From IMG/VR virus record IMGVR_UViG_3300031576_000224, positions 1 to 33,027 of that record: DNA of 33,027 nt; one strand, written 5' to 3'. Both the position numbers and the translations under genes were made by a program. The notes below the pieces were generated by a model. It was not told the origin of the DNA. It did no database searches and saw only the letters and a list, made by a program, of their open reading frames with translations. Source of the stretch: a virus. Positions 803 to 31,682 of the stretch are shown piece by piece. Position 1 is the first letter of the stretch; each line of letters begins with the position of its first letter.

Positions 803-3800
803 TTCCAAAAGGATTCGTACTCGAATCCGACGAAGTTTTCAACAAAGCCATAGATTTAACTTCCGGCTTTGAAGGTGGATTCACTGTTGATAGTGGCGGC
901 CCGACGAATTACGGCATAACGCAAACGGCCCTTAATAATTATCAGGAAAAAAAGGGGTTATCTAATGTCGATGTTAAAAAAATATCCCCGGATTATGCGC
1001 GGAAGATTGCTAAAGAAGAATATTTCGACAGACCAAATTTTTCTGTTCTCCCCGAAAACACAGCCATTGTGATGTTCGATTATGGGTTTAACGCCGGACC
1101 GCAGAAAGCCGCTAAAACACTTCAGCGAATTGTTGGGGCAACGCCGGATGGTCAAATTGGCCCTAAGACAATCAAGGCCACACAATCATATATCGAAAAG
1201 AACGGTGAAGAATCTTTGCTTAAGGGCATCCTTGATTCCCGCGAGAAGGAACTGACAAATCTCATAGAGAATAATCCCAAGAAATATGCTCCTTATAAAA
1301 ATGGTTGGATGAATCGGCTTAATTCAATACGTAAACAATTTGATATCTCCTCGTTGAACCAATTCTCGACAAAAGAAGCCTTTGCAGATGAATTTGTGAA
1401 TACTTTACCTGAAGGGTTTCAATTAGAAAAACCTTCCGCCGGTGAGGTGCCAACAAATCTTCCAGAAGGCTTTCAGCTAGAAAAATCAACTCCCATATTA
1501 GAGCGACTTGGCAAAGGTTATGGCATGGGGGTTGCGGGCACAGTAGAGGCCACCGGCGGGCTTTTAAAGTGGTTTGGTGCGGAGAAGGTTGGGAAAGCAT
1601 TTACGGATTATGCCAATGAGATGAAACAGTTTTATTCCGTTCCCGATCCTAAATTTATCGACCAAATAGCAGCCGGGTTCGGCTCTTTTTCAACATTCTT
1701 TTTACCTGGGCTCGGGATCGCCAAGGGGGCCCAAGCTTTACAAGCTGTCCCTAAGCTTGCCATGTTGTTAGGGGCGACATCATCGGCCACATTAGAAGCC
1801 ATGGTTGAGGCTGGCTCGACCTATGAACGATCCCGCAATAAAGGAATGGATGATGAAGGAGCATCAAGCGCGGCGACGTTCGATTTCATTCTAAATCTTC
1901 CCAGTAGTGTTGTCTTGAATAACCTCGGGGTTTTCAGTCATGCCGGTAAACCACTTCTAAAAGCCTTGAAATCAGCCGCGGGTGAGGGGTCTCAGGAATT
2001 CCTTCAGCAAGTCGTTTCCAACGTGGCGGCCAGCGATCCGGCCCTGGAAGGGGCCTTGGCATCTTTGTTTGTCGGTGCAATCACCGGCGGGGTGACGATG
2101 GGGGTTATATCCACAGCTCAAGACTTGGATACTTTAAGGCAAGCTAAAATTTTAAAGGACAAAATCAAGGATTTAAGTCCAAAAGATAATCTTGCCAGGG
2201 ATGCGAGTGGAAAACCTATTGAAATCAACCCCATGCCGTCTGTTCAGCCAGCTACCCCAGAGGAAGCCACTCAACAGCAGATTCTTACTGAAACAATAAA
2301 GTCTGATGTTAAAGCCGTCGAGTTACAAATTTCTAATGAGTCCAATGTCAAATTCATTATTGAGAAGGCTGGGGGAAAGTTTAAGGCAATTACGGATATG
2401 AATAACAGCCTCTTTGAAGATGAGCCCACGATTTATTACGATACACCCAGTGGAAACACTCAGACAATAAGACCGTCACAATTAAATTTTGAAACCGTTC
2501 AGAAAAAGATTCAAGATTTTGAGAATAAGTTTGTTCAGAGACCGAAACCAAACATTGAGGTTGTAAAAACTCCGTTAGAGAAAGCCGGTCAAGAATTCTC
2601 CTATAAAGAATTTAAGGAACTGAATCTTGCTGAACCAGCCAAGACTCCGCAGGATTTTAGTAAACGCATAGACCAATTAAATAAATTCGCTCAGGCCCGG
2701 GCCATTCTACGCAAATCCGGGAAGATGAAAGGCAAGTCCGGGGTTTTTAAATCAATTCCAAAAGAGGGAGAAGTTGGATTGGCCCATGAGACCATGTATT
2801 CCCCCAAACAATACATGGAAACGTTGGGCCATGAACTTGGGCATTCGATTGAATTCAATGTCTTAGGTAAAACGAATCAGGGCTTAAAATTGTTCGGAGA
2901 AAAACTTGACGTTGAGACTCTGAAAAGCGTCAGAAAAGAATTGATCGCCGTTACAAAAGACTTGGTGGGCGAAGAAACAATGAACAGCAAGCCTGGGTAT
3001 TATTATCGACCGGCTGAGTTAATTGCGCGGTATTTTGAAAAAATGATTGGTTCTCCTGGGAACCTTGAGGAATTGGCCCCAACCGTCTCACGGTTGATTA
3101 AAGAAAAATCTTTAAAACATCCAATCATCCAGGAATTTCTTGAGGCCGCCAATGAGGGCATCGATAAAGGTGCGCCGAAATTCGTCTTGCTTCGTGATTT
3201 AAAGCAGACATATCAGAAATTTCTTGGCAAACGAGTCGGCGATATTGCTTACGGGGAAGAAGTGGCATACCGGGCTATGAAGGAACGGGCAAAGTTTCAA
3301 ATCGAGAAATTTATCAATGAGAAGTTCAAAGGCGTTAAGGATTCCCCAGAGGCACTTTTTAAAACTGCTGAATCAATAAAAATATCACGAAGCGGTCAAC
3401 CTGAATTTGGGACAAGAGATTTTGCGATTGCCAAGACACAAGAAGAAGAGGCCAAACTTTTAGAAATGGGATATACGAAAATTCCGCTGCCTGTCACGGA
3501 AGATGGTAAAGCTTACGCTCAATTCGCCAAGTGGCGATATACACCCGAGCAGGCTAAACAGATTTTCGATTCACTATCACCGGCCGGGAAAAAACTCGTC
3601 TTAGATTTTACTGCCGAACGCTCTGAGGCCAAGGACTACTTCAACCGGGAAGTGATCAGAGAAGTTAATAAAATCGAGGCCAGCATTGAGGGATGGGTAC
3701 ATCATTATTTTGAAGAAACTCCCGGCGGGTCGACAATCGTTGGGGGCAAAAAATTTAGGAAGAAAATCGCTGGGACTAGAAAACATCGAGAAGGTGCTTT

Positions 3801-5526: not shown

Positions 5527-5535
5527 TTAATGTCC

Positions 5536-5802
5536 TTAATAATCATCATGGGCAGGCCAATGAGATTGCTTTTCCAGTTCAATCTCTTCCATGAGATTGC
5601 AAGCATCTTTGGAGTGTGTATCACAATATTCATCTAACCAGGTTCTTTTTTGATGCTCTTTGTTGTAAGTTTCTTCTCTCTTGAGGTCAATTTTTTTGGC
5701 GATTGGGCTATTTATAAAAATTAAAAGGAATGTTGGGAATACAAACAAAATCACCCAGAGATACATCAGATTAATTTTTTCTGTGAACGCCATGGCAAAC
5801 AT
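5536..5802 (-). CDS. Small single-pass membrane protein, unknown function
   Basis: The 88-residue reverse-strand frame starts at an ATG at 5802; a TTG at 5811 or an ATG at 5793 are alternatives. Residues about 12-32 form one hydrophobic segment, followed by a charged helical tail containing two Cys residues. A good promoter lies about 40 bases upstream on the same strand (5844-5872), which supports expression. No Shine-Dalgarno site is clear. The gene points against the giant virion gene and belongs to the reverse-strand island. I do not recognise a family. Confidence 0.55.
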   Translation of the reverse strand: MFAMAFTEKINLMYLWVILFVFPTFLLIFINSPIAKKIDLKREETYNKEHQKRTWLDEYCDTHSKDACNLMEEIELEKQSHWPAHDDY

Positions 5803-5843
5803 TTTATCCAATAATTGGGGGAAAACCGAAGCCGAATATTTAG

Positions 5844-5872
5844 ATTATAAAAACACCAAATAAAATAATCAA
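5844..5872 (-). promoter_or_regulatory. Sigma70-type promoter for the reverse-strand gene at 5536-5802
   Basis: On the reverse strand TTGATT (5872-5867), a 17-base spacer and TATAAT (5849-5844) make a near-consensus promoter. Transcription would start near 5836, about 35 bases before the ATG at 5802. Confidence 0.6.
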
Positions 5873-5889
5873 ATCAGCGCGGACAATAC

Positions 5890-6072
5890 ATGCAAATTTT
5901 AAATATTCTTGAATTATCTTTCTCGGTTGTGATCTTAGTTATCTGTGTCGTTCTTATTTTTTTGTGTGGCAATCTTATGTCTTTATGTCAACAAAACGTT
6001 GAAATTTTCAAAACAGTTAGAGAAGCTATGAAGGAATTAAAAAAACATCTTGATACACATGATGAACGTTAA
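5890..6072 (+). CDS. Small membrane protein with helical tail, unknown function
   Basis: The 60 residues consist of one strong transmembrane segment (about 10-30) followed by a charged helix ending KKHLDTHDER. The upstream sequence GCGCGGACAATAC gives only a weak ribosome site. Its 3' end overlaps the end of the opposing gene at 6037-6210 by 36 bases. The architecture resembles small phage lysis or exclusion proteins, but nothing more specific can be said. The frame could be fortuitous. Confidence 0.45.
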   Translation: MQILNILELSFSVVILVICVVLIFLCGNLMSLCQQNVEIFKTVREAMKELKKHLDTHDER

Positions 6073-6210
6073 GATGGCAATTACAATGGTCAAAAATAAT
6101 AATATTTTATTGAAAAATAACAATATTTTATTAGTTGATTCTGAACGGGTAGCGAGAGTTTCGAGTGTTTTGATTAAATTGTTCATGGCATCATCAAATC
6201 CTTTGTCCAT
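6037..6210 (-). CDS. 57-residue single-pass membrane protein
   Basis: Reading the reverse strand from 6210 gives an ATG seven bases behind AAGGAG, then a polar helix (MDKGFDDAMNNLIKTLETLA) and a hydrophobic C-terminal half from about residue 29 to 52. The strong ribosome site overlaps the stop of the zinc-ribbon gene at 6219-6503, so the two are translationally linked. It is an N-in or tail-anchored type of membrane protein of unknown function. The forward-strand frame across the same bases lacks a ribosome site. Confidence 0.65.
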   Translation of the reverse strand: MDKGFDDAMNNLIKTLETLATRSESTNKILLFFNKILLFLTIVIAILTFIMCIKMFF

Positions 6211-6218
6211 GTTTCTCC

Positions 6219-6503
6219 TTATGAAAGTTGACCTTTTATAAAACCATTTTCTTTGAGACGGGAGGCAAGTAAGTTGTTTAAATCTAATTCAATCGATTTG
6301 ATTATTTGGGCAACGGATTCTGGGGAAGCCAAAAAAGGAAACCGTGAAGAATCTATTTTCATGCCACTGGCAAAATGGCAGATAGGGCAACGTAAATCTC
6401 CCGACTTTCCTGCGGATAAATCAGAGAATATTTGTACTAAATCAAATTCCATTTCGGGTTTGCAATGCTTACAGGTTATCGTTTGAATGATTTTTGCTTT
6501 CAT
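6219..6503 (-). CDS. Zinc-ribbon protein, paralogue of the 6513-6836 product
   Basis: The 94-residue protein starts at an ATG. It has CKHC at residues 11-14 and CPIC further on, a two-knuckle zinc ribbon, followed by a helical C-terminus ending in LKENGF. It aligns with its upstream neighbour over its whole length: K-A-K/R-I at the start, C-x-H-C, EFD, L-x-CP-x-C, and a final LK-x-x-GF. The pair arose by tandem duplication. No catalytic motif is visible; nucleic-acid or protein binding is the likely use. Confidence 0.65.
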   Translation of the reverse strand: MKAKIIQTITCKHCKPEMEFDLVQIFSDLSAGKSGDLRCPICHFASGMKIDSSRFPFLASPESVAQIIKSIELDLNNLLASRLKENGFIKGQLS

Positions 6504-6512
6504 AAAGATTCA

Positions 6513-6836
6513 TCATTCTTTGACTTCAAAACTTCGGAACCCATATTTTTTTAATTGTTTGACAAGTCCAGATTGAAGATGCTGTTCAATGGCTAAAAAG
6601 GCAACAGACAGATCAGAAATAGTACGAAATGGCGCAGTCATTTCCATTAAAGTTATTCCAATGGCTCGTTGGCAATTTGGGCATATTAAATCAGCGCGTA
6701 CTTTATTATCATTTAATTTCGATGAGTGGGTAAGAGATACAATAGCGGCCTCTGATAATAAAGGAGTATATGTAATGTCAAATTCCTTGTAACAATGTAG
6801 ACATTTAAAAGTAGCGACTATTCTGGCTTTAAACAT
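6513..6836 (-). CDS. Zinc-ribbon protein, first gene of reverse-strand island
   Basis: The 107-residue protein starts at the ATG at 6836; a TTG at 6848 would add four residues. CLHC at residues 12-15 and CPNC further on form a zinc ribbon. The C-terminal half is helical and ends with LKKYGFRSFEVKE. It is the longer member of a duplicated pair with the next gene. No clear Shine-Dalgarno site precedes it, so the start is uncertain and it may be leaderless or nearly so. Function unknown. Confidence 0.6.
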   Translation of the reverse strand: MFKARIVATFKCLHCYKEFDITYTPLLSEAAIVSLTHSSKLNDNKVRADLICPNCQRAIGITLMEMTAPFRTISDLSVAFLAIEQHLQSGLVKQLKKYGFRSFEVKE

Positions 6837-7013
6837 TATGAAAAACAAATTTATTATTTGTGACGGAGTTAAGCACCCATGTATCTATGAATCAACTGGC
6901 GGAGATTGGCAAACTAGAATTTTCGCTCCTCCTCCAAGTATTTTGTCAAAGCATAAGAAAACTCATAGCAAAGTTACGCGATCGTATTTTAAGAATTCAT
7001 CCATAATAAAAAA

Positions 7014-7083
7014 CCCCACGAAAACGGCTAAGTAAACGTGGGGAAAGGGACAAAATCCCTTTTAAAATGTCCTTAGCCGTTTT
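7014..7083. terminator. Overlapping bidirectional terminator / alternative hairpins
   Basis: Bases 6837-7117 hold no convincing gene. Three stems share the stretch 7014-7083. CCCCACG (7014-7020) pairs with CGTGGGG (7037-7043); on the reverse strand it is followed by TTTTTTATT, a normal leftward terminator. AAAACGGCTAAG (7021-7032) pairs with CTTAGCCGTTTT (7072-7083) and ends in a T run, a rightward terminator with a long loop. AAAGGGA (7044-7050) pairs with TCCCTTT (7056-7062) inside that loop. The first two stems overlap in the primary sequence, so they exclude one another. Confidence 0.6.
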
Positions 7084-7117
7084 TACAAGGGAAATATACC
7101 ACATTTTGGAGGATATG

Positions 7118-9196
7118 ATGAGCATTTTACTGAGAAAGTTTCGAATCAACAAGGGGGAGATTTTGAAGCGATTTTTTCTATTCCTCCCCGTTGTGGCGTT
7201 GATATGGCTTAGTTTATTGCCCTTGCCAGTTCAATCTCAACCGGCGACTTTTGTCCCTAGCACAGCTTCAGAGATAGATACAAACACCTCAGCCTTCAAT
7301 AACAACCTTTCATCGGCGGATAATACCGTACAAAAAGCATTGGACACACTTGATGAATTGGTTGGGGGTAGTGGTGGGGACAATGTGACAGTCAATTCCA
7401 CCACCGCAACGAATGCTAATTTCCTTGATAATCTTTATGTCGATTGGGCGATAAACACCGCTGCCACTCCCGATGACATTACAGCAAAATTTAATTATGC
7501 CGAAACTCTAGCGGGCAACCCGGCGCTATTGACAACAGAGTGCGTATTCACGGCAGATGGTATTTTATGCGAGGGGACGACTGCCGATACCATTGAAATT
7601 AAATTGGCATTTCCCGATCCTGTCACATCTGACAAAACCATTACTTTCCCTAATGCCACGGATACTTTGGTTGGGAAAGACACGACGGACACATTGACCA
7701 ATAAGACTTTAGCGGCGGCCAGCAATGTTATTGACGCGGATACAGCAGTGGCTTTGGCTGCCAACGGAGCAAATTGCTCAGCTGGTCAATATCCTTTAGG
7801 GGTAGATGCTTCGGGTGCTTCCGAAAGTTGCACAGCAGATGATGATATTCCCGATGCCGGAGATTATAGCAATCTTACCGGTGGGGCAGGCATTGTAAAC
7901 AATCCGACGGGAACAATAGCCACGGCTTCAAGCGAGGCGGATTTTTTGGCTACGGGTGCGTTGACTTGTGGAGCTGGAACACAAGGCAAGATTCAGGTAC
8001 ACACGACACCACTTCAATATTGCGACAATGCCGCCACACCTGCCTTACAGTATGCGGCCTATGGGAACAGCTCGGGAGTAGCGACTTCGGCAACGGCCTT
8101 AGCCGCCAACGGCGCCAACTGTTCGGCTGGTTCTGCGCCATTAGGCGTAGATGCTTCCGGCGCGGCTGAATCATGTACAGATTATGAAGAGGATTTAGCG
8201 AATTCTGCCGGTCTTGCCGCGGCATTATCTGATGAAACTGGCACTGGAGTTGCGGTATTTGGGACATCACCGACCTTTACCACAAGCATAGCCATAAATT
8301 CCACAGATCCGGCTGATGCCGGAGCAATCCGCTTAAATAATAATGAGAATATAGCATGGGAAGCGTCTCCGGCCGGAACAGATGAAACCATCAATCTTGA
8401 TGTATCCGAGAATTTTAATATTTCATCCCCCATTCAACTTGACGCCGATGATCCAGCAGATATTGAAGCGCTTCGATTCGATAATGCCGAAGGGATTGCG
8501 TGGGAAGCTTCCCCAGCGGGTACGGATGTTACTTTAAAAGTTGACGCCTCAGAGATATTACAAGCCAGCGGGACATTTAATGCCACAACGATAACCGAGA
8601 GCACGAATGCAGTTCCAAACTCTACCGATCATCTTGGATTTTTCGCGGCCACGACTTCCGCTCAACTAGCTGGAGTTATAAACGATGAAACCGGAAGCGG
8701 GGCGTTAACTTTTGCAACGAGTCCAGTATTTACAACATCAGTTGCTATTCCCCAAGGAACGGGCCCAACGGTGGATGCAGCCGGAGAAACCGCAGTTGAT
8801 ACTACCGACGACCAGCTTGTCTATTACGGAGGGGCCAAAAGGGTTATTCCTTATGAAAGGCCAGTATGTGTCGGTTTGGAATCTTTGGCCGCCACTGATG
8901 ATAATTACGCTTTCTGGATGGCCAATGATGCCGTTACTGTTACTGGGGTGGGATGTAATTGCCGCGGGACGTGTTCGACGTTGGCGACATTTACTCTTGA
9001 AGATCGTGGCGGGAACGCAATGACAATCACCGGGACGAATCCGACTTGTGCGACAACGGGGGCCGCAACGTTTGCCGCTGTCACCGCTGGTAATCAGCTA
9101 ACAGCCGGAGAAATGGCGGCTTTCGATGTAACTAATACGCCGACAACTGGGGACACATATGTTTTGTGTATTACTTATACGGTGGACGCACAGTGA
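7118..9196 (+). CDS. Secreted tail-fibre-like repeat protein
   Basis: The start at 7118 is chosen because GGAGG (7108-7112) lies five bases upstream; an in-frame ATG at 7067 falls inside the terminator hairpin. The 692-residue product begins with a signal peptide: basic n-region, hydrophobic FFLFLPVVALIWLSLLPLPV, and a likely cut after VQS. The rest is low in charge and rich in Thr, Ala, Asp and Asn. It includes the TLTNKTL motif common in phage tail proteins, two copies of ANGANCSAG...LGVDASGA-ESC, and two copies of an IAWEASPAGTD module. A fibre or host-contact role is likely. The signal peptide is unusual for a virion protein. Confidence 0.75.
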   Translation: MSILLRKFRINKGEILKRFFLFLPVVALIWLSLLPLPVQSQPATFVPSTASEIDTNTSAFNNNLSSADNTVQKALDTLDELVGGSGGDNVTVNSTTATNANFLDNLYVDWAINTAATPDDITAKFNYAETLAGNPALLTTECVFTADGILCEGTTADTIEIKLAFPDPVTSDKTITFPNATDTLVGKDTTDTLTNKTLAAASNVIDADTAVALAANGANCSAGQYPLGVDASGASESCTADDDIPDAGDYSNLTGGAGIVNNPTGTIATASSEADFLATGALTCGAGTQGKIQVHTTPLQYCDNAATPALQYAAYGNSSGVATSATALAANGANCSAGSAPLGVDASGAAESCTDYEEDLANSAGLAAALSDETGTGVAVFGTSPTFTTSIAINSTDPADAGAIRLNNNENIAWEASPAGTDETINLDVSENFNISSPIQLDADDPADIEALRFDNAEGIAWEASPAGTDVTLKVDASEILQASGTFNATTITESTNAVPNSTDHLGFFAATTSAQLAGVINDETGSGALTFATSPVFTTSVAIPQGTGPTVDAAGETAVDTTDDQLVYYGGAKRVIPYERPVCVGLESLAATDDNYAFWMANDAVTVTGVGCNCRGTCSTLATFTLEDRGGNAMTITGTNPTCATTGAATFAAVTAGNQLTAGEMAAFDVTNTPTTGDTYVLCITYTVDAQ

Positions 9197-10959
9197 AACG
9201 CCTAATCTTAAAAACATTTTTTTTCTTGATGCTGATGTGTACGACAGTCTATGCCCAGGATTATTGGGTATTTATTCGTACTTATGATCGTCCTGGAACA
9301 AATGCGTTAACTGACGCTGGCATATCAAAACGAGGTGATATTGTACAAATTACTCCGGTTGTTGCGGGACAGGAACCGACGCCGGATGAACAGAAAGAAT
9401 GGGCGATAGTAAGAGTTACTGGAATTACGCAAGCAGATATCGACACTTATACAGCTTCTTTTCAAGAAAGTACTCCGATGCTGACTTCACCTACGGGATA
9501 TCCAGTATATAGAGATAAGGCGTTTCGTAAGTTTAAAGTAGATATTGATACTTTAAATTATAAGCAACCTGGACTTTATAAAACGCCAATCATATGGTCT
9601 GGCGTAAAGACAAAGATTAATCAAAAGACGGTATTAGATATCACAAGATATCGAATGGGATGGATGAAATATGCTTATCTTGAGAGACTGTTAATACGAT
9701 TAAGTAATATTTTAGTGCCGAGAGCATGGGCTGTAACAACAGTCACATCAAAAATATGTGCTACTGGTTCAAATTGTACGGATGAAAACTACAATACTCT
9801 ACAGGCATGGGAAGATGCGAAAAATGGAGATTTGGTTACAGCCGATACTATACAAAGAGCTGAATGCTATGACGACGATGGAAATATTACCGGAGCACTT
9901 AGTGTTGCTGGATGGACTACGAATAGTACACATTATGCTGAAATTACAGCTCCGGTTGGAGAACGACACAATGGAACCGCCGCATCCGGTGCTACGTTGA
10001 CATACACGACAACTGGCTCTTCGCAAAATATGATTTCAGTATCAACCAGTAATTACTTTCATATTAGCTGGCTGGTTATAAAAATGACAATTTCCCATCC
10101 TGACGGGAAAGCTCTGAATCTAAGTAATTCGACTGGAGAACAATGGTTTGTCGACCATATGGTCATTGGAAACTATGGTGCAAAAACAGCGAATGACCCT
10201 CTTGGCGTGGTATTTGGGTATACGGATTCAACAGGAAGATTATCTAATTCTGTTGTTTATGATTTTCTTGGCCCGGCTGCTCATGAAGGAAGCTGTGTGC
10301 AGATGCAAAGATTGTTACATTACGCTTATTCTAATACGCTTTATGGATGTGGATATGGACTTACACATGGGACTGGGGCTGGAGAGTCACCATCATATGC
10401 AAAGAATAATATTTCTTACAATAATTCAATCGCAGATTATTCTGGAGCAAACGATAATGGAGCTTGGAATTCTGCATCAACGGGAAATTTATCAAAAGAT
10501 GGCACAGTAGTTTGCGGTGCGACATTCGCCACTGGAACGAATACTACAGCGACAGCGAATAAGTTGATTGATAGTGGAGCATCATTTCAAACAGCAGAAA
10601 TCGTTGTCGGTTCAAAGGTCAAAAATCAAACAGATACAACATGGTCTTATGTCACATCAGTAGATAGTCAGACGCAATTAACCTTGAATGATGACATATT
10701 TTTAGCGACGGCAAAATCCTATAAAGTTTTCAAAGCATATTCTAATCGGACGTTAACTTTTTCGGATACTACAAATAAAAATTTTCATTTAGTTTCTGGA
10801 GATACAGCCGCAATGGACTTAGGAGCTGATTTGGATGCAGATGCGACTATCGCCATTACCGATGATATCGATGGAAATGCGCGGCATGCAACAACGCCGG
10901 ATATTGGGGCAGATGAGTTTATTGCAGCGGCGGCCAGAAGAACGTTTACGGTGAATTAA
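9193..10959 (+). CDS. Secreted right-handed beta-helix protein (tailspike or adhesin-like)
   Basis: The GTG at 9193 overlaps the previous stop (GTGA) behind GGTGGA. The 588-residue product has a clear signal peptide ending VYA before QDYW. After a unique N-terminal domain of about 180 residues, the sequence shows short beta-strand repeats rich in Asn, Ser and Gly, as in pectate-lyase-like beta helices. It ends with DIDGNARHATTPDIGADEF, the closing motif seen in many beta-helix surface proteins (choice-of-anchor Q type). It may bind or cleave surface polysaccharide. No catalytic residues can be assigned by eye. Confidence 0.7.
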   Translation: MKRLILKTFFFLMLMCTTVYAQDYWVFIRTYDRPGTNALTDAGISKRGDIVQITPVVAGQEPTPDEQKEWAIVRVTGITQADIDTYTASFQESTPMLTSPTGYPVYRDKAFRKFKVDIDTLNYKQPGLYKTPIIWSGVKTKINQKTVLDITRYRMGWMKYAYLERLLIRLSNILVPRAWAVTTVTSKICATGSNCTDENYNTLQAWEDAKNGDLVTADTIQRAECYDDDGNITGALSVAGWTTNSTHYAEITAPVGERHNGTAASGATLTYTTTGSSQNMISVSTSNYFHISWLVIKMTISHPDGKALNLSNSTGEQWFVDHMVIGNYGAKTANDPLGVVFGYTDSTGRLSNSVVYDFLGPAAHEGSCVQMQRLLHYAYSNTLYGCGYGLTHGTGAGESPSYAKNNISYNNSIADYSGANDNGAWNSASTGNLSKDGTVVCGATFATGTNTTATANKLIDSGASFQTAEIVVGSKVKNQTDTTWSYVTSVDSQTQLTLNDDIFLATAKSYKVFKAYSNRTLTFSDTTNKNFHLVSGDTAAMDLGADLDADATIAITDDIDGNARHATTPDIGADEFIAAAARRTFTVN

Positions 10960-14291: not shown

Positions 14292-14337
14292 GTTGTGTAT
14301 GAATTAAAGAAAGTGATTTCTTTATGAAATTTTTAGT

Positions 14338-14451
14338 GCCGGGTAAATTAGTGGTTTTTTTATTGTCAAAAACAATCCCCATATCTCGAAACCGAAAAAA
14401 ACCACTAACCAAGTGATTGGTCTACCCGGCCCGGCGTAGAGATTGGGGATT
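14338..14451. other. Interleaved inverted-repeat element (structured RNA or bidirectional terminator)
   Basis: Between the HTH gene and the gene start at 14474, 400 bases hold only regulatory structure. In this part GCCGGGTA (14338-14345) pairs with TACCCGGC (14423-14430). TTAGTGGTTTTTTT (14348-14361) pairs with AAAAAAACCACTAA (14395-14408). ACCAA/TTGGT (14408-14421) forms a small hairpin. AATCCCCATATCTC (14374-14387) pairs with GAGATTGGGGATT (14439-14451), which is followed by TTTCTTTT. The last pairing crosses the others, giving either a pseudoknot or a switch between two folds. Confidence 0.6.
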
Positions 14452-20036: not shown

Positions 20037-20228
20037 ATGAACATAAGAACTGGAGATTTATTCACGTTGGGGGAAGTCAAGAAAAAGCCAATAGCGGAAC
20101 AAAAACATTTTGTCGAAATTCCAGATGCTTTTCTTCCAGAGATTGAGGGGATGAATCGGCAGGAAAGACGAAAGTGGCTAAAATTAAATCGAAAAAGAAT
20201 TGAAAGGTTTACGGCTTCAGAAAAATAA
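20037..20228 (+). CDS. Small basic early protein, unknown
   Basis: The ATG follows the previous stop without a gap; GGGAATATTTGA gives a moderate ribosome site. The 63 residues end in a basic helix (RRKWLKLNRKRIERF), suggesting nucleic-acid contact. No motif is recognised. Confidence 0.55.
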   Translation: MNIRTGDLFTLGEVKKKPIAEQKHFVEIPDAFLPEIEGMNRQERRKWLKLNRKRIERFTASEK

Positions 20229-21121: not shown

Positions 21122-22084
21122 GTGGCTTGGATTGAATCTCATACTATTTTAACGAGGCATAGAAAATTAGTTTTTATGGCAAAAGAGCTTCGCCTGAAAC
21201 CCGTTTATTTAATGGGGCACCTTCACGCACTCTGGCACGCCGCAATGGAACAGCAAGAGGACGGCGATCTATCGTCATGGACTGACGAAATCATCGCTGA
21301 ATACGCGCAGTTTCAAGGCGACGCCCCTCAGTTCGTCTCCCTGCTCCAAAAATATAGATGGCTGGATGGTAAACTCATACATGACTGGCTTGAATATGCC
21401 GGGAAGTATCTTGAATCGAAATATCGTTCAAGTAATTATAATCGTCTCATAAATATTTGGGAAAAACATGGACTTATTTACGATAAGGCTCCGGCGCGCC
21501 AAATGAAAGCTGGATGGAATAAGATTCGTGATGAAATCCTTAAAAGAGATGATTATAAATGTCATTATTGTAGCGAAAAAAGTGAGTTTATGGAAGTAGA
21601 CCATGTTTTAGCTGTTGAGAATGGCGGAACTGATGATTTATCAAATCTTGTGGCTTGTTGTCGCTCTTGTAATCGCAAAAAAGGCGATAAAGCCATATTA
21701 AAGCCAGACTCAAGCCAGACTAAAGCCAGCCCACCTAACCTACCTAACCTACCTAACCTACCTAACCTACCTAACCAAAATACTTATGCGCAGCAAGCTG
21801 CGCGTTTGCGTATCATTTTTGATGAATTTTGGGATAAATACCCAAAAAAATTAGGACGTAAATCCGCACAGCGGCATTTTAACGCATCGGTAAAAACGGA
21901 TGATGATGTTAGTTTGTTCAAAAAAGCCTTTGATGCGTTTTTACACTCAAAAGTTGCCCATGGTGATTCGCAATTTATTCCTCACGGATCAACTTGGTTT
22001 AATAATTGGCGGGATTGGGTTGATTATCAAGAACCTAATGATGGTATTCCAAACGAATGGAAAACAAAGAAGGTGAGTACATGA
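21122..22084 (+). CDS. Replication initiator with internal HNH domain
   Basis: The 320-residue protein starts at a GTG. Residues 1-110 (MAWIESHTILTRHRKLVFMA, then YLMGHLHALWHAA) match the winged-helix N-terminus of phage replication initiators. Residues 133-190 are a complete HNH nuclease: ILKRDDYKCHYC, then VDHVLAVENGGTDDLSNLV and CRSCNRKKGDK. A repetitive NLPNLPNLP linker follows. The C-terminal 95 residues (FDEFWDKYPKK, then FIPHGSTWFNNW) match the C-terminal domain of such initiators. The HNH lies where relatives have only a linker. The coding DNA contains iteron-like repeats. It is coupled to the next gene by ATGA. Confidence 0.8.
   Translation: MAWIESHTILTRHRKLVFMAKELRLKPVYLMGHLHALWHAAMEQQEDGDLSSWTDEIIAEYAQFQGDAPQFVSLLQKYRWLDGKLIHDWLEYAGKYLESKYRSSNYNRLINIWEKHGLIYDKAPARQMKAGWNKIRDEILKRDDYKCHYCSEKSEFMEVDHVLAVENGGTDDLSNLVACCRSCNRKKGDKAILKPDSSQTKASPPNLPNLPNLPNLPNQNTYAQQAARLRIIFDEFWDKYPKKLGRKSAQRHFNASVKTDDDVSLFKKAFDAFLHSKVAHGDSQFIPHGSTWFNNWRDWVDYQEPNDGIPNEWKTKKVST
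21701..21803 (+). repeat. Iteron-like repeats and hairpin inside the initiator gene; candidate origin
   Basis: Three 10-11-bp units AAGCCAGACTC, AAGCCAGACTA, AAGCCAGCCC lie head to tail at 21701-21732. Five 9-bp units ACCTAACCT follow at 21733-21777, the last ending in A. A perfect hairpin GCGCAGC-AA-GCTGCGC sits at 21788-21803, followed by AT-rich sequence. This order recalls the origin inside the O gene of lambdoid phages. The 9-bp units also encode the Asn-Leu-Pro linker. Confidence 0.55.
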
Positions 22085-23566: not shown

Positions 23567-24335
23567 GCAAGAAGAAATTCGATGCAAGCTATGCGACAAT
23601 TTGGTGTTCCAGCAGTACGCTCTAAAGTCAAAGATTGATAATTTGGAGACTGTCAACAACTGGTATCATTGCCGCTGCGGGTGCATATTTAATAATCATA
23701 AGCTCAATGACAAATCTAAAATATTCAACGCCGAATATCGCAAAGTTTATCAGGAAATGAAGGGAGTGGGGGTTCTCTACGATTACTTCATCCGCCTCTA
23801 TGCGCCGATTCTCGAGGAGAAAACCTACGGTCGGAAATTCATCGACGTTGGTTATTGTTTGGAATATCTGATTGACGGAATGAAAAGGCGGGGATGGATT
23901 TCCACCGGCATTGATTTAATTCCAGGTCCGTACATTCACGATGATTTTGAAAAGTTTAATTTCGGCAAAGAGCGGTTTGATTTGATTTGGCTGGGTGGCG
24001 TTATTCAATGTTTTGAGGATCCATTGACTGCGCTTTATAAAGCCTACGATTTATTGCGGCCGGATGGGCTGATGTTTATTGCCACGCCCAACACGGATTT
24101 AATCAAATATGATTTCATTCCAGCGTGGGGGCATTGGGATATGCGAGAGAACCGTCAGTTTATTTCAGAACAGAATTTGAGAGACATTCTCTCTCGGGCG
24201 GACCGAACATTAACCGGACGATGTAAAATTATTTACATGGACTCCGAGGTGATCACTAAACGCTTTCCCAGTTGGAACGTGATGCACGCAATTATCCAGA
24301 AAAAGAAAATTGAGATGTTTAATTTCGGGAGGTAA
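23532..24335 (+). CDS. SAM-dependent methyltransferase with N-terminal zinc site
   Basis: The ATG at 23532 gives 267 residues; an in-frame upstream start would extend further into the GT9 gene. CKLC and CRCGC near residues 18-52 form a zinc site. The Rossmann core follows: KFIDVGYCLEYLIDGMKRRG (motif I, with the usual GxG replaced by GYC), GIDLI, FDLIWLGGVIQCFEDP and LLRPDGLMFIATPN. This is the Methyltransf_23/13 type often found with sugar genes. The likely substrate is a glycan or small molecule. The altered motif I could weaken SAM binding. Confidence 0.75.
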   Translation: MIKENFKPLTPKQEEIRCKLCDNLVFQQYALKSKIDNLETVNNWYHCRCGCIFNNHKLNDKSKIFNAEYRKVYQEMKGVGVLYDYFIRLYAPILEEKTYGRKFIDVGYCLEYLIDGMKRRGWISTGIDLIPGPYIHDDFEKFNFGKERFDLIWLGGVIQCFEDPLTALYKAYDLLRPDGLMFIATPNTDLIKYDFIPAWGHWDMRENRQFISEQNLRDILSRADRTLTGRCKIIYMDSEVITKRFPSWNVMHAIIQKKKIEMFNFGR

Positions 24336-24336
24336 A

Positions 24337-24483
24337 ATGACGGCATTAGAAAAGTTTCTTGAGGCATTTAATCGGTTTTCCGCAGATTGGGAGAAACAAT
24401 CCAGAATCATTGTTCGTGGCAATGAGATCGTCCAGATTGAATGCGAAGGTTTTATTTTTATGGGTGATGAAAAAGAAAAATAA
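24337..24483 (+). CDS. 48-residue protein at the end of the glycan module
   Basis: The ATG at 24337 follows GGGAGGTAAA, one base after the methyltransferase stop. The product starts MTALEKFLEAFNRFSADWEK and ends in an acidic, partly hydrophobic tail. The strong ribosome site makes it likely to be real. Function unknown. Confidence 0.6.
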   Translation: MTALEKFLEAFNRFSADWEKQSRIIVRGNEIVQIECEGFIFMGDEKEK

Positions 24484-24543
24484 AAAATTTCTTGATTTTT
24501 AATAGATTAGGCCCAAACTTTTGATTAGAAAATTGTATAGCCG

Positions 24544-24674
24544 CTTGCCTGTGACTAACCATTAGGGCAAGATGTGCCGAATTAGCTCCCAAGCTGTGGC
24601 TAATCACTAGGCGCGGGAGCGGGCAAGTGTAACGTAACAGAAGCACCAGGCTGTGACTAACCATTAGGCCGGTG
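24544..24674 (+). ncRNA. Three tandem hairpins with a shared 16-nt core
   Basis: Cores TGTGACTAACCATTAG (24550-24565 and 24652-24667) and TGTGGCTAATCACTAG (24595-24610) each sit inside a different outer stem: CTTGCC/GGCAAG, GCTCCC/GGGAGC, and CACC-a-GGC/GCC-GGTG. Within the core, GTG(A/G) pairs with (C/T)CA(T/C) around a CTAA loop. The three changes in copy 2 keep or improve these pairs. The element lies between the glycan module and the terminase genes. Nothing else is seen in 24484-24714 apart from the terminator. Confidence 0.65.
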
Positions 24675-24706
24675 TACTCCACGCAAGGAGTGCATCGGCC
24701 TTTTTT
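24667..24706 (+). terminator. Strong intrinsic terminator sharing an arm with hairpin 3
   Basis: GGCCGGTGTACTCC (24667-24680) pairs with GGAGTGCATCGGCC (24687-24700) over 14 positions, two of them G-T, around the loop ACGCAA, followed by TTTTTT. Its first eight bases are the 3' arm of hairpin 3, so the two folds exclude one another. Confidence 0.75.
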
Positions 24707-24714
24707 GTTTTTAT

Positions 24715-24882
24715 ATGCTGAAAATTACATCAAACATTATTTCTGAACCGGGCTTGTATCAGTTATTCGAAAGCCATGATCGTCGGATGATATTGATTTT
24801 GAAATTGGATTTGGAAATGAACCCACAGATTAATCTTAACCAAATGATTGAAGTTATTCTCGAACAGTCGAATAGGGGATAA
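24715..24882 (+). CDS. 55-residue protein before the terminase genes
   Basis: The ATG at 24715 lies eight bases after the terminator T run, without a clear ribosome site. The product (MLKITSNIISEPGLYQLFES, then a helix ending EQSNRG) stops directly before the small terminase ATG. It may be a head-operon regulator or a terminase accessory protein. The missing ribosome site lowers confidence. Confidence 0.5.
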   Translation: MLKITSNIISEPGLYQLFESHDRRMILILKLDLEMNPQINLNQMIEVILEQSNRG

Positions 24883-25443
24883 ATGGAACCAATTCCGCAA
24901 ACAAATCCTGATAGAATCGTTGGTTTAGAACCAAGGGCGAGCAAGCCCAGGCGATATCCCAAAAAGTTTCTTAAGTTTAAACGCATGCTACTTACCCGTC
25001 CGGACTTATCCCCAACGGACATTGCTCATAGAACTTACACCTGCAAAAACGATAATGTGGCCCGAACGATTGCGTCGCGCAATATGCGGGCCTTGAGATT
25101 AACGTTTAAAGACACTCTTGAGCGCATTGGCCTGACTGATGAACGTGACGCGACGGACTTGCTAAGACTACGCGGAGCCAAGATCACAAAGTTTTTTGCG
25201 CATAAGGGAACGGTTCTCGATGAGCGTGAGGTAGAAGATAACGATGTCCAACTTAGAGCCCTTGAGTTAACACGAAAAATAAAAGGCGACTTTTTCAGGG
25301 ACGAAAACGGGAATCTTGGAATTATTGGCGGGGTCACAGTTGCAATCATCATCGATAACAATTCCCCGGTGAATGTGATTGATGTCGCTGAGGCCAAAGG
25401 AATGGATGATGTCAAAGTTGGTGTTGAGGTTGATAAATTATGA
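24883..25443 (+). CDS. terS: Terminase small subunit
   Basis: The ATG follows AGGGGATAA. The 186 residues start with a basic linker and an HTH-like segment (LLTRPDLSPTDIAHRTYTCK), then a helical oligomerisation region and a beta/acidic C-terminus. It overlaps the large subunit by ATGA. Small subunits bind the packaging site and hand DNA to the large subunit. Size, HTH-like N-terminus and place all fit; sequence conservation in this family is always low. Confidence 0.75.
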   Translation: MEPIPQTNPDRIVGLEPRASKPRRYPKKFLKFKRMLLTRPDLSPTDIAHRTYTCKNDNVARTIASRNMRALRLTFKDTLERIGLTDERDATDLLRLRGAKITKFFAHKGTVLDEREVEDNDVQLRALELTRKIKGDFFRDENGNLGIIGGVTVAIIIDNNSPVNVIDVAEAKGMDDVKVGVEVDKL

Positions 25444-26819
25444 GTGAGCGTTATACATACGTCGTAAAAAAGGGCGAAGAAGTTGTGCGGAAGATTATTC
25501 TTTCCGACAAACAAAAGCGTTGTTTGGTTTCAAAAGCAAAAGAGATTCTTGCGTCCGGCGGTTTCCGCGCCGGAAAATCGCTGGGGATAATTATCAAGAT
25601 TATTGCCCAGCATCTTACCATCCCCAATAACCGCGGTCTCATCGGCCGCTTAACATACCCAGAGTTAAGAGATACAGTGCAAAAAGATTTTTTCCAGATT
25701 CTTCCGAGCGAATGGATAAAAACTTGGCGGGAATCCCGTGGAGAGTTGATTCTAAAAAACGGAACGGAAATTCTTTTTAGACACTTAGATTCAGTCTCGG
25801 AAGAAGAAATGCGCGGGATGACTCTGGGATTTGCGTATATCTCCCAAGTCGAAGAGACCAAGGAGTCTGTTTATCTCACACTGAAATCCCGCATTAATCT
25901 TCAACACGTCCCGGCCCGGCAGTTGCTCATGGACTGCAATCCGGTTCTTTTCTGGGCGTATAAATATTTCAAACAAGAAAATGATCCCGACCGTGAGTTG
26001 ATTGAGTTTTCCATGTTCGACAACAAAGACAATCTTCCTGAGGATTATCTGGCCGATATGATGAAACGTCCGGAGAGTTGGAAGAAGCAATACGTATATG
26101 GAGTCTGGGACGAAAGCCTTCTGTCGGACAAAGCAGTTATCCCCGTCGAATATATTCAACTCCAAAAACGCTTTGTCCGTAAACCCAAGCGCATGTTGGA
26201 TGATGTCCAGATATTTGAGGACGTTATCCCTGAACACACATATCAGGCTGGGGTTGATACATCCGAGGGTTTAGGGCTGGATTATTCATCGTTGAGTATC
26301 TTTGATTGCCAGACGGGGGAGCAGGTCGCCTATTGGAGAGGACAAGTGCAACCTGATTTATTGGCGATGAAAATTGTCCCAGCACTACGATATTTTAACG
26401 AGGCGTTTGTTGTTCCAGAGATCAACGGCTGTGGACTGGCGTTTGTCAATAAGCTCAAAGAAATTTATGAGAATATTTATAAACGCAAAGAATTTGACCG
26501 CGACAACGAAGTTGAAAAGGAAATGCTTGGATGGAAAACAAGTTTCGTGACCAAGCCACTTTTAGTATCCAACTTCATAAAGCTTTTGCGTGAAGGACAC
26601 ATCAAACTCAGATCCGAAGAGACGGTCAATGAGATGCCGACGTTTGTTTATTCCGACGAAGGACCGCGCAAGGGAATGGGCGCTCAAGGTGGATTCCATG
26701 ACGACTCTCTTATTGGGGCCATGCTTGGGTGTTGGAACATTCTTGAGAATCAAGTGCGGATGGGCGTGTCATTAGGCTCATTCGATCATTTGGTTGGCGG
26801 TGGACGAGGTGGATGGTGA
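25440..26819 (+). CDS. terL: Terminase large subunit
   Basis: The 459 residues contain Walker A GGFRAGKS at 40-47, a Walker B/catalytic segment FAYISQVEE near 129-138, and the RNase H-type nuclease motifs GVDTSEGLGLDYS near 271-283 and GGFHDDSLIGA near 417-427. This is a complete packaging motor and nuclease. It cuts concatemeric DNA and pumps it through the portal. It is coupled to both the small subunit and the portal gene. Confidence 0.93.
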   Translation: MSERYTYVVKKGEEVVRKIILSDKQKRCLVSKAKEILASGGFRAGKSLGIIIKIIAQHLTIPNNRGLIGRLTYPELRDTVQKDFFQILPSEWIKTWRESRGELILKNGTEILFRHLDSVSEEEMRGMTLGFAYISQVEETKESVYLTLKSRINLQHVPARQLLMDCNPVLFWAYKYFKQENDPDRELIEFSMFDNKDNLPEDYLADMMKRPESWKKQYVYGVWDESLLSDKAVIPVEYIQLQKRFVRKPKRMLDDVQIFEDVIPEHTYQAGVDTSEGLGLDYSSLSIFDCQTGEQVAYWRGQVQPDLLAMKIVPALRYFNEAFVVPEINGCGLAFVNKLKEIYENIYKRKEFDRDNEVEKEMLGWKTSFVTKPLLVSNFIKLLREGHIKLRSEETVNEMPTFVYSDEGPRKGMGAQGGFHDDSLIGAMLGCWNILENQVRMGVSLGSFDHLVGGGRGGW

Positions 26820-28636
26820 TGGCTGAGAAAAATAAAAAAATGACTGACACCGAATATCTGATTTTTTTGAGTGATTGCAAAACTTCAGGTATCCAGTACC
26901 GTGACAAATTCCGCGATACGTGGGAGGAAATTGAGAGACAGATCCGGTGCGTTCCGCCAGACTCCTGGCAACTCAAAGAAGATTGGCAAACGAAGATTTA
27001 TATCCCGCTTCAATCCAAGAAGTCTGAAATTGCGCTCTCTTATTTGAGCAAAATGATTTTTCCGAAAGGAACAAATTTTGGTTTAACCGGCGTGAGTGAG
27101 GACGACAAGGAAGATGTTCAACAGCTCGTTCTTCTCATTTCAACGTTAATGCGTATGGGTGGATTTCAGACGGAGAATGAATTTGTTTTAACAGAAGCCA
27201 TAGACCAGGGGACGGCATTTTTGAAACTCACCATGACGGGCGATGAGAACATAACAAAACTCACATGGCGAAGTCCGCTTAATTGTGTGTTCGATCCAGA
27301 CTGCGGACACAATTTCTCGCGCAAGAGATTCTGGACTGACCTTTACAAAAAAGATATTTCTTGGTTGATGAACGAGACCAGAAATCCGCATAGCCTTTAC
27401 AGTAAAGATAAAATCAAAAGCTTCTTTGATGATGCTGCCGGAGAAGTTGCTGCTGTCTCCCAAACCAATCAGAACACATCTTCTCAATCTCAAGAGAATC
27501 GAGAGCCGACATTAACCATACGCTCAATTGACGGGACACAGGATATTACAATCCCCGCAAAATATAAAATCGTGGACATTGATGAGCACTGGGTTATGGT
27601 ACCGACAAGCGACGGATACGATATGCGGGTCACAACGATCTTGAATTCAAAATACATTCTCAGGGATAACGAAAATGAGTTGGGGTTTATCCCTGTTACG
27701 TGGTGCCGAACAAAGCCGAGAAAATACGATGCCTATGGACGCGGATACATGGAGAACACCAGGGGGCTTCAGGATTTGATAAACACGACAATTAATCTTG
27801 GATTCGATAGTCTGAAAATTTCGTCGATGGACATCATCGTCATCAACGAAAGGGCCGTAGCGGATCCGGCATCAATTAAATATAAGCCTCTCGCAATCTG
27901 GAAGATGAAGGACATTAACGGTGTCAAGATTCAGAGACAACCATCGTCTTCCATCACGGATATTTTGCGAGGCCTGACGATTATCGATCAGATTGATCAG
28001 GATGCTTCTGGCATTACTCGTCATGCCGCCGGAACGCCGTCTTTATCATCAACGGGGACAGAGCCAAACACTCTGGGAGAATACAAATTGCAGTTGCAAA
28101 TGGTAGATGATCGATTCTTAAAGCAAGGACGATTTATTGAAATGGATTATTACGTCCCTTTAATCACCATGTATTACAAAATTGTAATGAATGAAAAACT
28201 TTTTACTCAAAAAATGGCGGATGACATTTTGGGGATGAAACAGGTGGATGAACTCGAAATTGATCCAATTTCCAAAGAAGCCAAAGTTATCGGAAAAAAG
28301 AGTATCCCAAAGCTTGATCTTAAGAATCTCCGAGAAAAAGGCGACATGTCCAAGAATTTCGTCGCTTTTGGCGTGACTTTATTCACCGATAAGCTTGAAA
28401 AAATTGAAAAGCTTAAACAAGCTCTGGATGCGGCATTATCGAATCCGACATTATCGGCGTTGACGAAGATTGATGTTCTCTGGCAGAGGCTCTGGCAGGC
28501 GGCTGAGATTGATGATTATCAAGATTTCTTGAGGTCTATCGACGAAGTTAAGGAGATGTTGGGTGAACAGGGCGCACCGCCCGGAGCACCCCCAATGGCA
28601 CCACAAGGGATGCCCCAAGGAGCGCCAATTGCCTAA
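26819..28636 (+). CDS. Portal (head-tail connector) protein
   Basis: The ATG at 26819 overlaps the terminase stop (TGATG); an ATG at 26813 is also possible. The 605 residues match podovirus-type portals: an N-terminal helical region with DWQTKIYIPLQSKKSEIALS, a central GYMENTRGLQDLINTTINLG segment, and a long helical C-terminus ending in a Pro/Gly/Ala-rich tail. Portals form the dodecameric DNA gate of the head. Length and gene order agree. Confidence 0.85.
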   Translation: MAEKNKKMTDTEYLIFLSDCKTSGIQYRDKFRDTWEEIERQIRCVPPDSWQLKEDWQTKIYIPLQSKKSEIALSYLSKMIFPKGTNFGLTGVSEDDKEDVQQLVLLISTLMRMGGFQTENEFVLTEAIDQGTAFLKLTMTGDENITKLTWRSPLNCVFDPDCGHNFSRKRFWTDLYKKDISWLMNETRNPHSLYSKDKIKSFFDDAAGEVAAVSQTNQNTSSQSQENREPTLTIRSIDGTQDITIPAKYKIVDIDEHWVMVPTSDGYDMRVTTILNSKYILRDNENELGFIPVTWCRTKPRKYDAYGRGYMENTRGLQDLINTTINLGFDSLKISSMDIIVINERAVADPASIKYKPLAIWKMKDINGVKIQRQPSSSITDILRGLTIIDQIDQDASGITRHAAGTPSLSSTGTEPNTLGEYKLQLQMVDDRFLKQGRFIEMDYYVPLITMYYKIVMNEKLFTQKMADDILGMKQVDELEIDPISKEAKVIGKKSIPKLDLKNLREKGDMSKNFVAFGVTLFTDKLEKIEKLKQALDAALSNPTLSALTKIDVLWQRLWQAAEIDDYQDFLRSIDEVKEMLGEQGAPPGAPPMAPQGMPQGAPIA

Positions 28637-30041: not shown

Positions 30042-30311
30042 ATGGCTCAATTGTGGGTAACAAATTCGCTTGGCGGGCATTTGACAAATAACAGGTTGTC
30101 AAAGAGTCTCCGCAAACAAGCGCTCCCAAATTATGTGTACCGGCAGTTTGTCAACATCAAAGAAGACTTCGGGAAAAAATCCGGTGACACGGTCTTCTTC
30201 GATAAGTTGCTTAAGATTGACACGAAAGGTGCGACCTTAACGGAAACCTCGACGATTCCGGAAAACAAATGGAAAGTGGTCAAGGATTCCGTTGTGGTTG
30301 CAGAGTGGGGT
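30042..30311 (+). CDS. Major capsid protein, exon 1
   Basis: The first 90 codons of the capsid gene, starting at an ATG behind AAAGGAGTG. MAQLWVTNSLGGHLTNNRLS, then GDTVFFDKLLKI and VVVAEWG, match the N-terminus of N4-gp56-type HK97-fold capsid proteins. Unspliced, the frame ends at 30371 after 19 foreign residues. The exon ends with the T at 30311, where the expected continuation AEWG-NSVPYTEKLD is found at 31002. The spliced protein would be 316 residues, a normal length for the family. Confidence 0.85.
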
Positions 30312-31001
30312 AAAACTATTGCCCTCTGGATTAACCAATTAATGAGCGTCGTATGTTTAAGAATTGCGTAAATTGCGGAAAAGAGAAGAAGTTGACCAGG
30401 CATGAGAAATGCGTTTCATGTGCTCATTTGGGTCGATCGGCTTGGAATAAAGGCTTACAAGGATTTATGAAAGGCCGCATTACTTCTTTTGAAACTAAAC
30501 ACAAAATAAGCATAGCTCAAAGTGGGAAGAAAAACCATAACTGGAAAGGCGGCATTACGCCAAAGACAAAGTCTTTCCTTTATTTCATATTCAAGGAGGA
30601 CGTTATTAAAAGGGATGAGAGCAAATGCACTATTTGCAAAATCTTTTTAATGTATCCGATTGTACACCACATTATCCATCAATCAGAGCGTCCAGACTTA
30701 AGATATGAAATAAATAACGGCAGGACAGTTTGCTATGACTGCCATATGGTTATTCACAACGAAGTTGGTTATTACAGGAAAAAACGGGGTGAATTCAGTG
30801 AAGAGCTTAATGAGCAAACACTGAGCCAAGCTTGGGAAGAAATTTCCTTGAAGGTGCAACGCATAATGGACGAGGCTAAAAGCTTAAATGCTCATGCCAG
30901 TAATTCCAACACGAGCGCCCTGGGCGTAAGCCAAGATATATGCTGAACATACGGGCAACCGTATGAGCTAAGAGATAAAAAGCTCTTAGGATAACAGAAC
31001 G
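30312..31001 (+). mobile_element. Group I intron in the major capsid gene
   Basis: The guide CTATTGCCCT (30316-30325) pairs GCCCT with the exon end GGGGT (P1, G-U at the splice site). It also pairs CTATT with the exon 2 start AATAG (P10). The intron ends in G. Core elements: Q CTGAGCCAAGC (30821-30831), P6 GGGAA-GAAA-TTTCC (30834-30847), R GTGCAACGCATAA (30854-30866), P8 closing GGCT/AGCC, and S AAGATATATGC (30933-30943). P7 is GCATA with TATGC. P9-type stems are CATACGG-GCAA-CCGTATG and CTAAGAG/CTCTTAG. AAATTGCGGAAAAG (30370-30383) resembles element P. CGTC (30347-30350) and GACG (30869-30872) can form P3. Confidence 0.9.
30353..30946 (+). CDS. HNH homing endonuclease inside the intron
   Basis: The 197-residue frame opens at an ATG 41 bases into the intron. 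It has an N-terminal zinc ribbon (CVNCGKEKK and CVSC), NUMOD-type DNA-binding segments (FETKHKISIAQSGKKNHNWK), and an HNH core (CTICKIFLMYPIVHHIIHQS, then RTVCYDCHMVIH). Such enzymes cut intronless capsid alleles and drive spread of the intron. The frame continues through ribozyme elements Q, P6, R and P8 and stops inside P7. The last 45 residues therefore read catalytic-core sequence. No strong ribosome site is present. Confidence 0.8.
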   Translation: MFKNCVNCGKEKKLTRHEKCVSCAHLGRSAWNKGLQGFMKGRITSFETKHKISIAQSGKKNHNWKGGITPKTKSFLYFIFKEDVIKRDESKCTICKIFLMYPIVHHIIHQSERPDLRYEINNGRTVCYDCHMVIHNEVGYYRKKRGEFSEELNEQTLSQAWEEISLKVQRIMDEAKSLNAHASNSNTSALGVSQDIC

Positions 31002-31682
31002 AATAGCGTTCCTTATACGGAAAAGCTTGACACGTTGGCTGAATTCGATCCGAGTGATATTTCTTCCCAAGTGTTAAAAAATGATCAAGTGGAAGTGCTC
31101 GATTCCGCGGCGTATGCGCAGTTTAATACCTGCAAGTACATTGCGGTTGCGACGAATACAGCGACAACCGTTTTCACCTCCAACGGAACCGCGACAATTA
31201 CCGCGACGGCTAACGCTTCGGATAAGACCGTTCGTGACATCATTGACGATATGGAGAAGAAAACCACTCCGAAATTCAGTGATGGAAATTATCGGGGCAT
31301 CGTGTCAGTCAATACCCGACGCGGAATCTATGACTTCTTGCAAGCGATTGCGCAATATACCAAACCGGAATACATGCACAACAATGAACTCGGTATGTAT
31401 TACAACTGCCGGTTCGTCGTTGATAATTCCGGGAATGTTCGGGACACCGTTGGCGCCAGCAGTCTTTATGGCGAAGGATTTTTCTTTGGCCAAGAGTCTG
31501 TCCTCGAGGCTGTGGCCTTGATGGAAGAAGTCCGCATGAAAATTCCTACGGACTACGGGCGCAGTAAGGGTGTGGCATGGTACGCAATCATGCAATTTAA
31601 AAAGATGTGGGATTTAACCAACGACGATCTCAACAGCACCAATAAGGGCATTGAGAGAATCTGGAAGTTAACGTCCGCATAA
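31002..31682 (+). CDS. Major capsid protein, exon 2
   Basis: The second part of the capsid gene, 226 codons plus stop, begins NSVPYTEKLDTLAEFDPSDI and includes LKNDQVEVLDSAAYAQF, the conserved spine-helix region of N4-gp56-type capsids. It ends with a helical region and WKLTSA. It has no start of its own at the splice point and is in frame with exon 1 after removal of 690 bases. Without splicing, no full capsid protein can be made. Confidence 0.85.
   Translation, partial: NSVPYTEKLDTLAEFDPSDISSQVLKNDQVEVLDSAAYAQFNTCKYIAVATNTATTVFTSNGTATITATANASDKTVRDIIDDMEKKTTPKFSDGNYRGIVSVNTRRGIYDFLQAIAQYTKPEYMHNNELGMYYNCRFVVDNSGNVRDTVGASSLYGEGFFFGQESVLEAVALMEEVRMKIPTDYGRSKGVAWYAIMQFKKMWDLTNDDLNSTNKGIERIWKLTSA

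Follow-up and report, generated by a model that had tools for sequence, protein, structure and literature searches.

A 231-nt non-coding leader in this virus, lying between the replication genes and the terminase genes, is a real structured element with the layout of an antiterminator/terminator leader: three tandem hairpins share a constant apex, and the last of them shares an arm with a strong intrinsic terminator. Based on this layout, we consider it moderately likely that the leader is a transcription-attenuation switch gating the packaging and structural operon. The window analysed is one virus record over its whole length of 33,027 bases, and everything rests on this one contig.

All genes with assigned families in the contig lie on the plus strand, and the leader with its terminator sits at the border between the replication module and the terminase–portal genes. 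Its immediate neighbors are a 57-aa open reading frame (ORF) upstream (24310-24483) and a 55-aa ORF downstream (24715-24882). The gene order is as follows.

784-10959, plus strand: lysis and virion proteins
Early region, plus strand: good promoter-like site at 13409
Up to ~22.1 kb, plus strand: replication genes, then a glycosyltransferase and a methyltransferase before the 24484-24714 gap
24484-24714, plus strand: non-coding leader holding the array, 231 nt (ORF table and gaps; whole-region fold z -3.1)
24883-25443, plus strand: probable terminase small subunit, the first clear downstream gene (adjoins terL; weak phrog_51 match, E 0.082)
25440-26819, plus strand: terminase large subunit (phrog_2, E 1.8e-32)
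26813-28636, plus strand: portal protein, SU10-type (PF23899 SU10_portal above cut-off; phrog_332)

The major capsid gene follows downstream of the portal gene. An AlphaFold model of the terminase small-subunit candidate, with a pLDDT of 41, was too poor for use. The 1580-aa protein encoded at 784-5526 carries an N-terminal endolysin domain, and its residues 332-639 weakly match the N4 virion RNA polymerase family phrog_2206 (E 4.7e-8); the replication-initiation-like protein at 21122-22084 is interrupted at residues ~126-190 by an HNH domain, which may be an endonuclease insertion.

The array is built on an 18-nt core, CTGTGRCTAAYCAYTAGG, whose only occurrences in the contig are the three in the leader, at 24549, 24594, and 24651. 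All 18 nt agree between copies 1 and 3, and copy 2 departs from them at three positions. With up to three mismatches allowed, 0.05 matches would be expected by chance, and three copies appeared in none of 100 shuffles. RNA folds of all three copies have a common apex, consisting of a C-G pair, a U.G pair, a GUG/CAY stem, an RCUAAY hexaloop, and a bulged UA dinucleotide on the 3' side. Each copy has its own outer-stem sequence, and each of these stems is paired.

24549-24566, plus strand: core copy 1, CTGTGACTAACCATTAGG
24594-24611, plus strand: core copy 2, CTGTGGCTAATCACTAGG
24651-24668, plus strand: core copy 3, CTGTGACTAACCATTAGG
24544-24571, plus strand: hairpin 1, with a 6-bp outer stem CUUGCC/GGCAAG, U.G, GUG/CAU, hexaloop ACUAAC, and the UA bulge
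24585-24620, plus strand: hairpin 2, with an outer stem GCUCCC/GGGAGC, a 2x2 internal loop, GCU/GGC, GUG/CAC, hexaloop GCUAAU, and the UA bulge
24643-24675, plus strand: hairpin 3, the proposed antiterminator, with a GCACC-A-GGC/GCC-GGUGU stem, U.G, GUG/CAU, hexaloop ACUAAC, and the UA bulge
24666-24701, plus strand: intrinsic terminator stem-loop of 15 bp, then TTTTTGTTTTT (terminator scan, fold, and pair list)

The cores are spaced 45 and 57 nt apart, and the hairpins are joined by linkers of 13 and 22 nt. CRISPR arrays have regular spacing, near-identical repeats of 23-50 nt, and unique spacers; here, three 18-nt cores are irregularly spaced and their flanks are paired, which bears out the view taken in an earlier note on this DNA that the array is not CRISPR-like.

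Statistical support for the outer stems was obtained by replacing the flanks of each core. With the core fold enforced, shuffled flanks gave p values of 0.0016, 0.0036, and 0.0018 for hairpins 1, 2, and 3, respectively, and in the joint test the three stems were matched in 0 of 5000 trials; random flanks gave 4e-4, 5e-5, and 2.5e-4. The shuffled-flank test was much weaker when the core was not enforced (p 0.04-0.08 for each hairpin), because the flanks are G+C-rich. The earlier note's description of three tandem hairpins with a constant core and variable but paired stems is confirmed by these tests.

That note had also placed all core changes of copy 2 at predicted pairs, and this holds: at the base of the apical stem a G-U pair is replaced by G-C, and the A.C that closes the loop is replaced by G.U. 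Its reading of these changes as covariation stands in part. The outer stems do differ and yet pair, but A.C is a non-standard pair that the thermodynamic fold leaves unpaired, and formal covariation across the three sequences was non-significant, with two two-sided pairs, a count reached in 218 of 500 shuffles. The percentage of paired cells in the three-copy alignment was reached in 11 of 500. Viral, phage, plasmid, and GTDB collections yielded no homologous array, so the covariation has only three copies behind it and is weak. The core-internal changes are suggestive, though three sequences are too few for significance, and the case for compensation therefore rests on the differing yet paired outer stems. 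Together, the data support selection on the fold and its use as a recognition site; a constant apex on freely varying stems is what a protein reading loop and bulge would select.

Two other descriptions of the repeat were rejected. A core stem of CTAA with TTAG is broken by copy 2, where A-T becomes A.C, whereas the GUG/CAY stem is preserved there. A minus-strand ORF (24458-24682, 74 aa) has the cores in frame, but two of the three copy differences in the repeated segment would alter the amino acid (LMVSH versus LVISH), its start sits inside the terminator stem, and all family-assigned genes lie on the other strand.

Copy 3 overlaps the terminator, a feature absent from the earlier note, and this recasts an unspecified binding site as a testable antiterminator/terminator switch. 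The terminator has a G+C-rich stem followed by a U-run, as expected of an intrinsic terminator. Its -28.6 kcal/mol is unrivalled in the contig, where the runner-up reaches -15.1, and the segment 24660-24712 folds at -29.1 kcal/mol with a z-score of -7.3. Positions 24666-24675 are both the 3' arm of hairpin 3 and the 5' arm of the terminator, so that the two structures are mutually exclusive. When only the 5' flank of core 3 was replaced and the terminator arm was left unchanged, the complementarity between the two had p 0.0015 against shuffled and 2.5e-4 against random 5' flanks, which makes it unlikely that the overlap arises by chance from the sequence of the terminator itself. In ensembles of the growing transcript, hairpin 3 is paired at 0.92-0.94 for 3' ends at 24675-24690, and the terminator replaces it as the 3' end moves from 24693 to 24699, reaching 0.86 at 24699 and 0.99 by 24702. 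The whole leader has an energy of -75.3 with the terminator versus -68.8 with hairpin 3 enforced. The leader is thus more stable with the terminator, which indicates that termination is the default and that something must hold hairpin 3 if termination is to be avoided.

Based on these properties, a simple model would have RNA polymerase arriving from upstream and transcribing hairpins 1 to 3 in turn. By default, the last ~25 nt would let the stronger terminator displace hairpin 3, and transcription would stop before the terminase genes. A trans-acting factor, most likely an RNA-binding protein of the phage or its host, would read the common core, that is, the RCUAAY hexaloop, the GUG/CAY stem, and the UA bulge. 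When bound, it would hold hairpin 3 and keep the shared arm from the terminator, promoting read-through into the late genes. The two earlier hairpins would act as additional sites, loading or concentrating the factor before hairpin 3 is transcribed.

The behavior of hairpin 1 adds a complication. Its 5' arm has a rival partner, GGGCAAG at 24621-24629 (pairing with 24542-24549), which repeats its own 3' arm and lies beyond hairpin 2. In the model ensembles, hairpin 1 is occupied at 0.06-0.35 while hairpin 3 is formed and more strongly once the terminator forms. The energy model may have produced this alternative pairing as an artefact, or it could be a genuine second switch.

Several copies of a recognition core in an RNA that ends at a very strong terminator could also describe a small RNA sponge, in which the terminated transcript of ~170-220 nt is itself the product and its hairpins titrate a host or phage RNA-binding protein. 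There is precedent in the sequestration of EutV by the small RNA EutX (PMC8934654). However, terminator formation destroys hairpin 3 and would leave the mature RNA with only two of its three sites, and a sponge leaves the overlap unexplained; we regard this reading as unlikely.

The earlier note had allowed the selected fold to be either an RNA site for a ligand or protein or a folded DNA site. The part concerning a recognition-site fold stands, and between RNA and DNA the evidence favors plus-strand RNA. Where the core has U.G and G.U pairs, the minus strand would have A.C mismatches, so that this pairing is specific to the plus strand. Copies 1 and 3 also fold more poorly on the minus strand (-7.3 versus -11.1 and -9.0 versus -12.8 kcal/mol, respectively). 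Plus-strand-only wobbles, together with a plus-strand terminator in the sense of the genes, make plus-strand RNA a better reading than folded or duplex DNA.

This evidence bears directly on a further alternative, namely that the repeats are DNA sites for the terminase small subunit in a cos- or pac-type packaging site. Three repeats directly upstream of terminase genes recall lambda cosB, whose three R sites (R1-R3) also lie upstream of the terminase genes. But duplex sites need no paired outer stems, and the stems here are significant; the strand dependence of the fold points the same way. In addition, spacings of 45 and 57 place the sites out of mutual helical phase, and the overlap with the terminator would be unexplained. 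We judge a packaging site improbable.

Detailed knowledge of late-gene control is available for few phages, and mostly concerns polymerase-modifying antiterminators (N, Q, put, and p7). The arrangement seen here is of a known type, found in bacterial leaders, and the hairpin recognition motif matches nothing known. The closest parallel is with the leaders targeted by ANTAR proteins, in which a terminator comes after hexaloop hairpins in tandem and is overlapped by the second of them (PMC3369931, PMC8934654). As in the EutV, NasR, and AmiR leaders, the last of the tandem hexaloop hairpins shares the 5' arm of the terminator and is mutually exclusive with it. ANTAR targets carry A at loop position 1 and G at position 4, with linkers of 5-12 nt in eut (PMC3369931). 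In contrast, position 4 is A in all three loops of the array (ACUAAC, GCUAAU, and ACUAAC), position 1 is G in copy 2, there are three hairpins rather than two, the linkers are 13 and 22 nt, and a UA bulge is conserved. Membership in the ANTAR-target RNAs is not claimed, given loop position 4 and linker length. The ANTAR profile PF03861 gave no match in the contig, but was silent on the controls too.

A protein-held antiterminator hairpin overlapping a terminator is also the mechanism of BglG, LicT, and SacY (PMC3369931). Their RAT element resembles the present hairpins in being ~30 nt long, in having a bulge or internal loop, and in being mutually exclusive with the terminator, but there is one RAT per terminator, compared with three sites here. 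No BglG-type protein (CAT-RBD or PRD Pfam families) was detected among the 20 contig proteins scanned. The sequence of the array core also appears unlike the RAT consensus.

Phage RNA stem-loops that cause antitermination include HK022 put and lambda nut/boxB. The put RNA comprises two stem-loops in ~70 nt just after the early promoters and acts through RNA polymerase over long distances, and arm sharing with a terminator is not described for it (PMC9378689); no boxB-type Rfam match was found in the leader. With lambda Q and tR', the leader shares a terminator ahead of late genes that needs to be overcome. Q, however, is loaded at a DNA site inside the late promoter (PMC6606751), whereas the leader presents its sites as RNA hairpins in competition with the terminator.

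Relatives of the array were sought with pattern scans in five forms across 2.9 million viral contigs, with scans of GTDB genomes, and with blastn against phages and plasmids; none of these yielded a second array. Strict and relaxed two-copy patterns had zero matches in the viral contigs, and the two-copy pattern had zero in GTDB genomes. The one-copy pattern found only two isolated cores in the viral contigs, lacking paired stems and scoring 22 and 16.7 bits with the three-copy covariance model, versus 42-50 for the real copies; 22 bits was the maximum across the 20 loci, related or hit by a pattern, to which the model was applied. For the leader itself, blastn gave nothing or chance-level matches among phages and plasmids. 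A three-copy pattern with free stems matched 27 contigs, which proved to hold other repeat families, and a loop-free two-copy pattern matched at least 80, among which those passing the stem filter mostly had multiple-of-three spacings, as in coding repeats. One of these other families consists of clusters of the palindrome CTAAYNNNTAG (in viral contigs L013, L016, L018, L019, L023, L028, and L035), which places stop codons on both strands and in some cases sits directly at gene ends; it is a repeat phenomenon separate from the array.

By protein comparison, the virus has only remote relatives in these collections. The terL relatives are 34% identical (L003-L005), the portal relatives 51% (L009), 39% (L037), and 26% (L038), and no portal relative was found in GTDB. 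The L009 contig begins within terL; L037 and L038 reach upstream of it and have neither array nor terminator there, which counts against the switch, as do the lack of an array homologue, the lack of a supported binding-factor candidate in the contig, and the rival pairing of hairpin 1. The homologue search proposed in the earlier note thus came back empty in the collections searched, the outcome that the note had named as refuting, but with relatives this remote the result does not disprove the fold. As these collections may lack some close records, the motif is rare or young rather than shown to be unique.

Rfam returned no family at gathering thresholds and none to E 5 over 24484-24720, consistent with the earlier statement that the motif is unrecognised. 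The same result weighs on a tandem small-molecule riboswitch, in which each core would be a mini-aptamer and hairpin 3 the expression platform. The antiterminator/terminator overlap and a conserved core on variable stems would also fit such a device, and tandem small aptamers exist, as in guanidine-II. Here, however, the core is one short hairpin, packaging genes would be an unusual target, and homologues were found neither in viral contigs nor in GTDB; an aptamer this small before packaging genes is possible but less likely, and we give the riboswitch a very low probability. Least probable is an ordinary strong terminator behind a decayed repeat of no regulatory role, for although conservation cannot be demonstrated outside the contig and three sequences lack formal covariation, decay would not maintain pairing in three different stems at the level of the joint test, nor around two identical 18-nt cores with unrelated flanks.

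Returning to the attenuation switch, a more specific version of it is offered tentatively, as one that could well prove wrong: a new regulator that binds RNA, encoded by the phage or taken over from its host, may read the RCUAAY hexaloop/UA-bulge hairpin and switch on the late genes by local stabilization of an antiterminator in a three-site leader, unlike the processive action of N, Q, and put. If true, a phage would time its packaging genes by local attenuation in the style of bacterial operons, and a new short RNA–protein recognition pair would be added. The sequence gives a sharp and cheap prediction of read-through that reporters can test. By composition only, the 63-aa ORF at 20037-20228 is a candidate factor; its arginine-rich segment NRQERRKWLKLNRKRIER (20154-20207) is of the kind seen in RNA-binding N-type peptides.

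Two further RNA features were observed elsewhere in the contig. A structured leader at 14337-14450 precedes a membrane-protein ORF (ATG at 14474). It contains the nested pairings CCGGGTA/TACCCGG and TTAGTGGTTTTTTT/AAAAAAACCACTAA, and pairing of TCCCCATATCTC with GAGATTGGGGA crosses these and would make a pseudoknot. No Rfam family matched it at a meaningful score, and its MFE z-score is only -1.7 because the folding tool does not score pseudoknots. The major capsid gene (30042-31682) is apparently split into 30042-30371 and 31035-31682, with an HNH endonuclease ORF at 30353-30946 between the parts. At 30742-30965 the group I intron family RF00028 matches below the Rfam threshold (24.8 bits, E 5e-4), suggesting that the capsid gene holds a self-splicing intron that carries a homing endonuclease.
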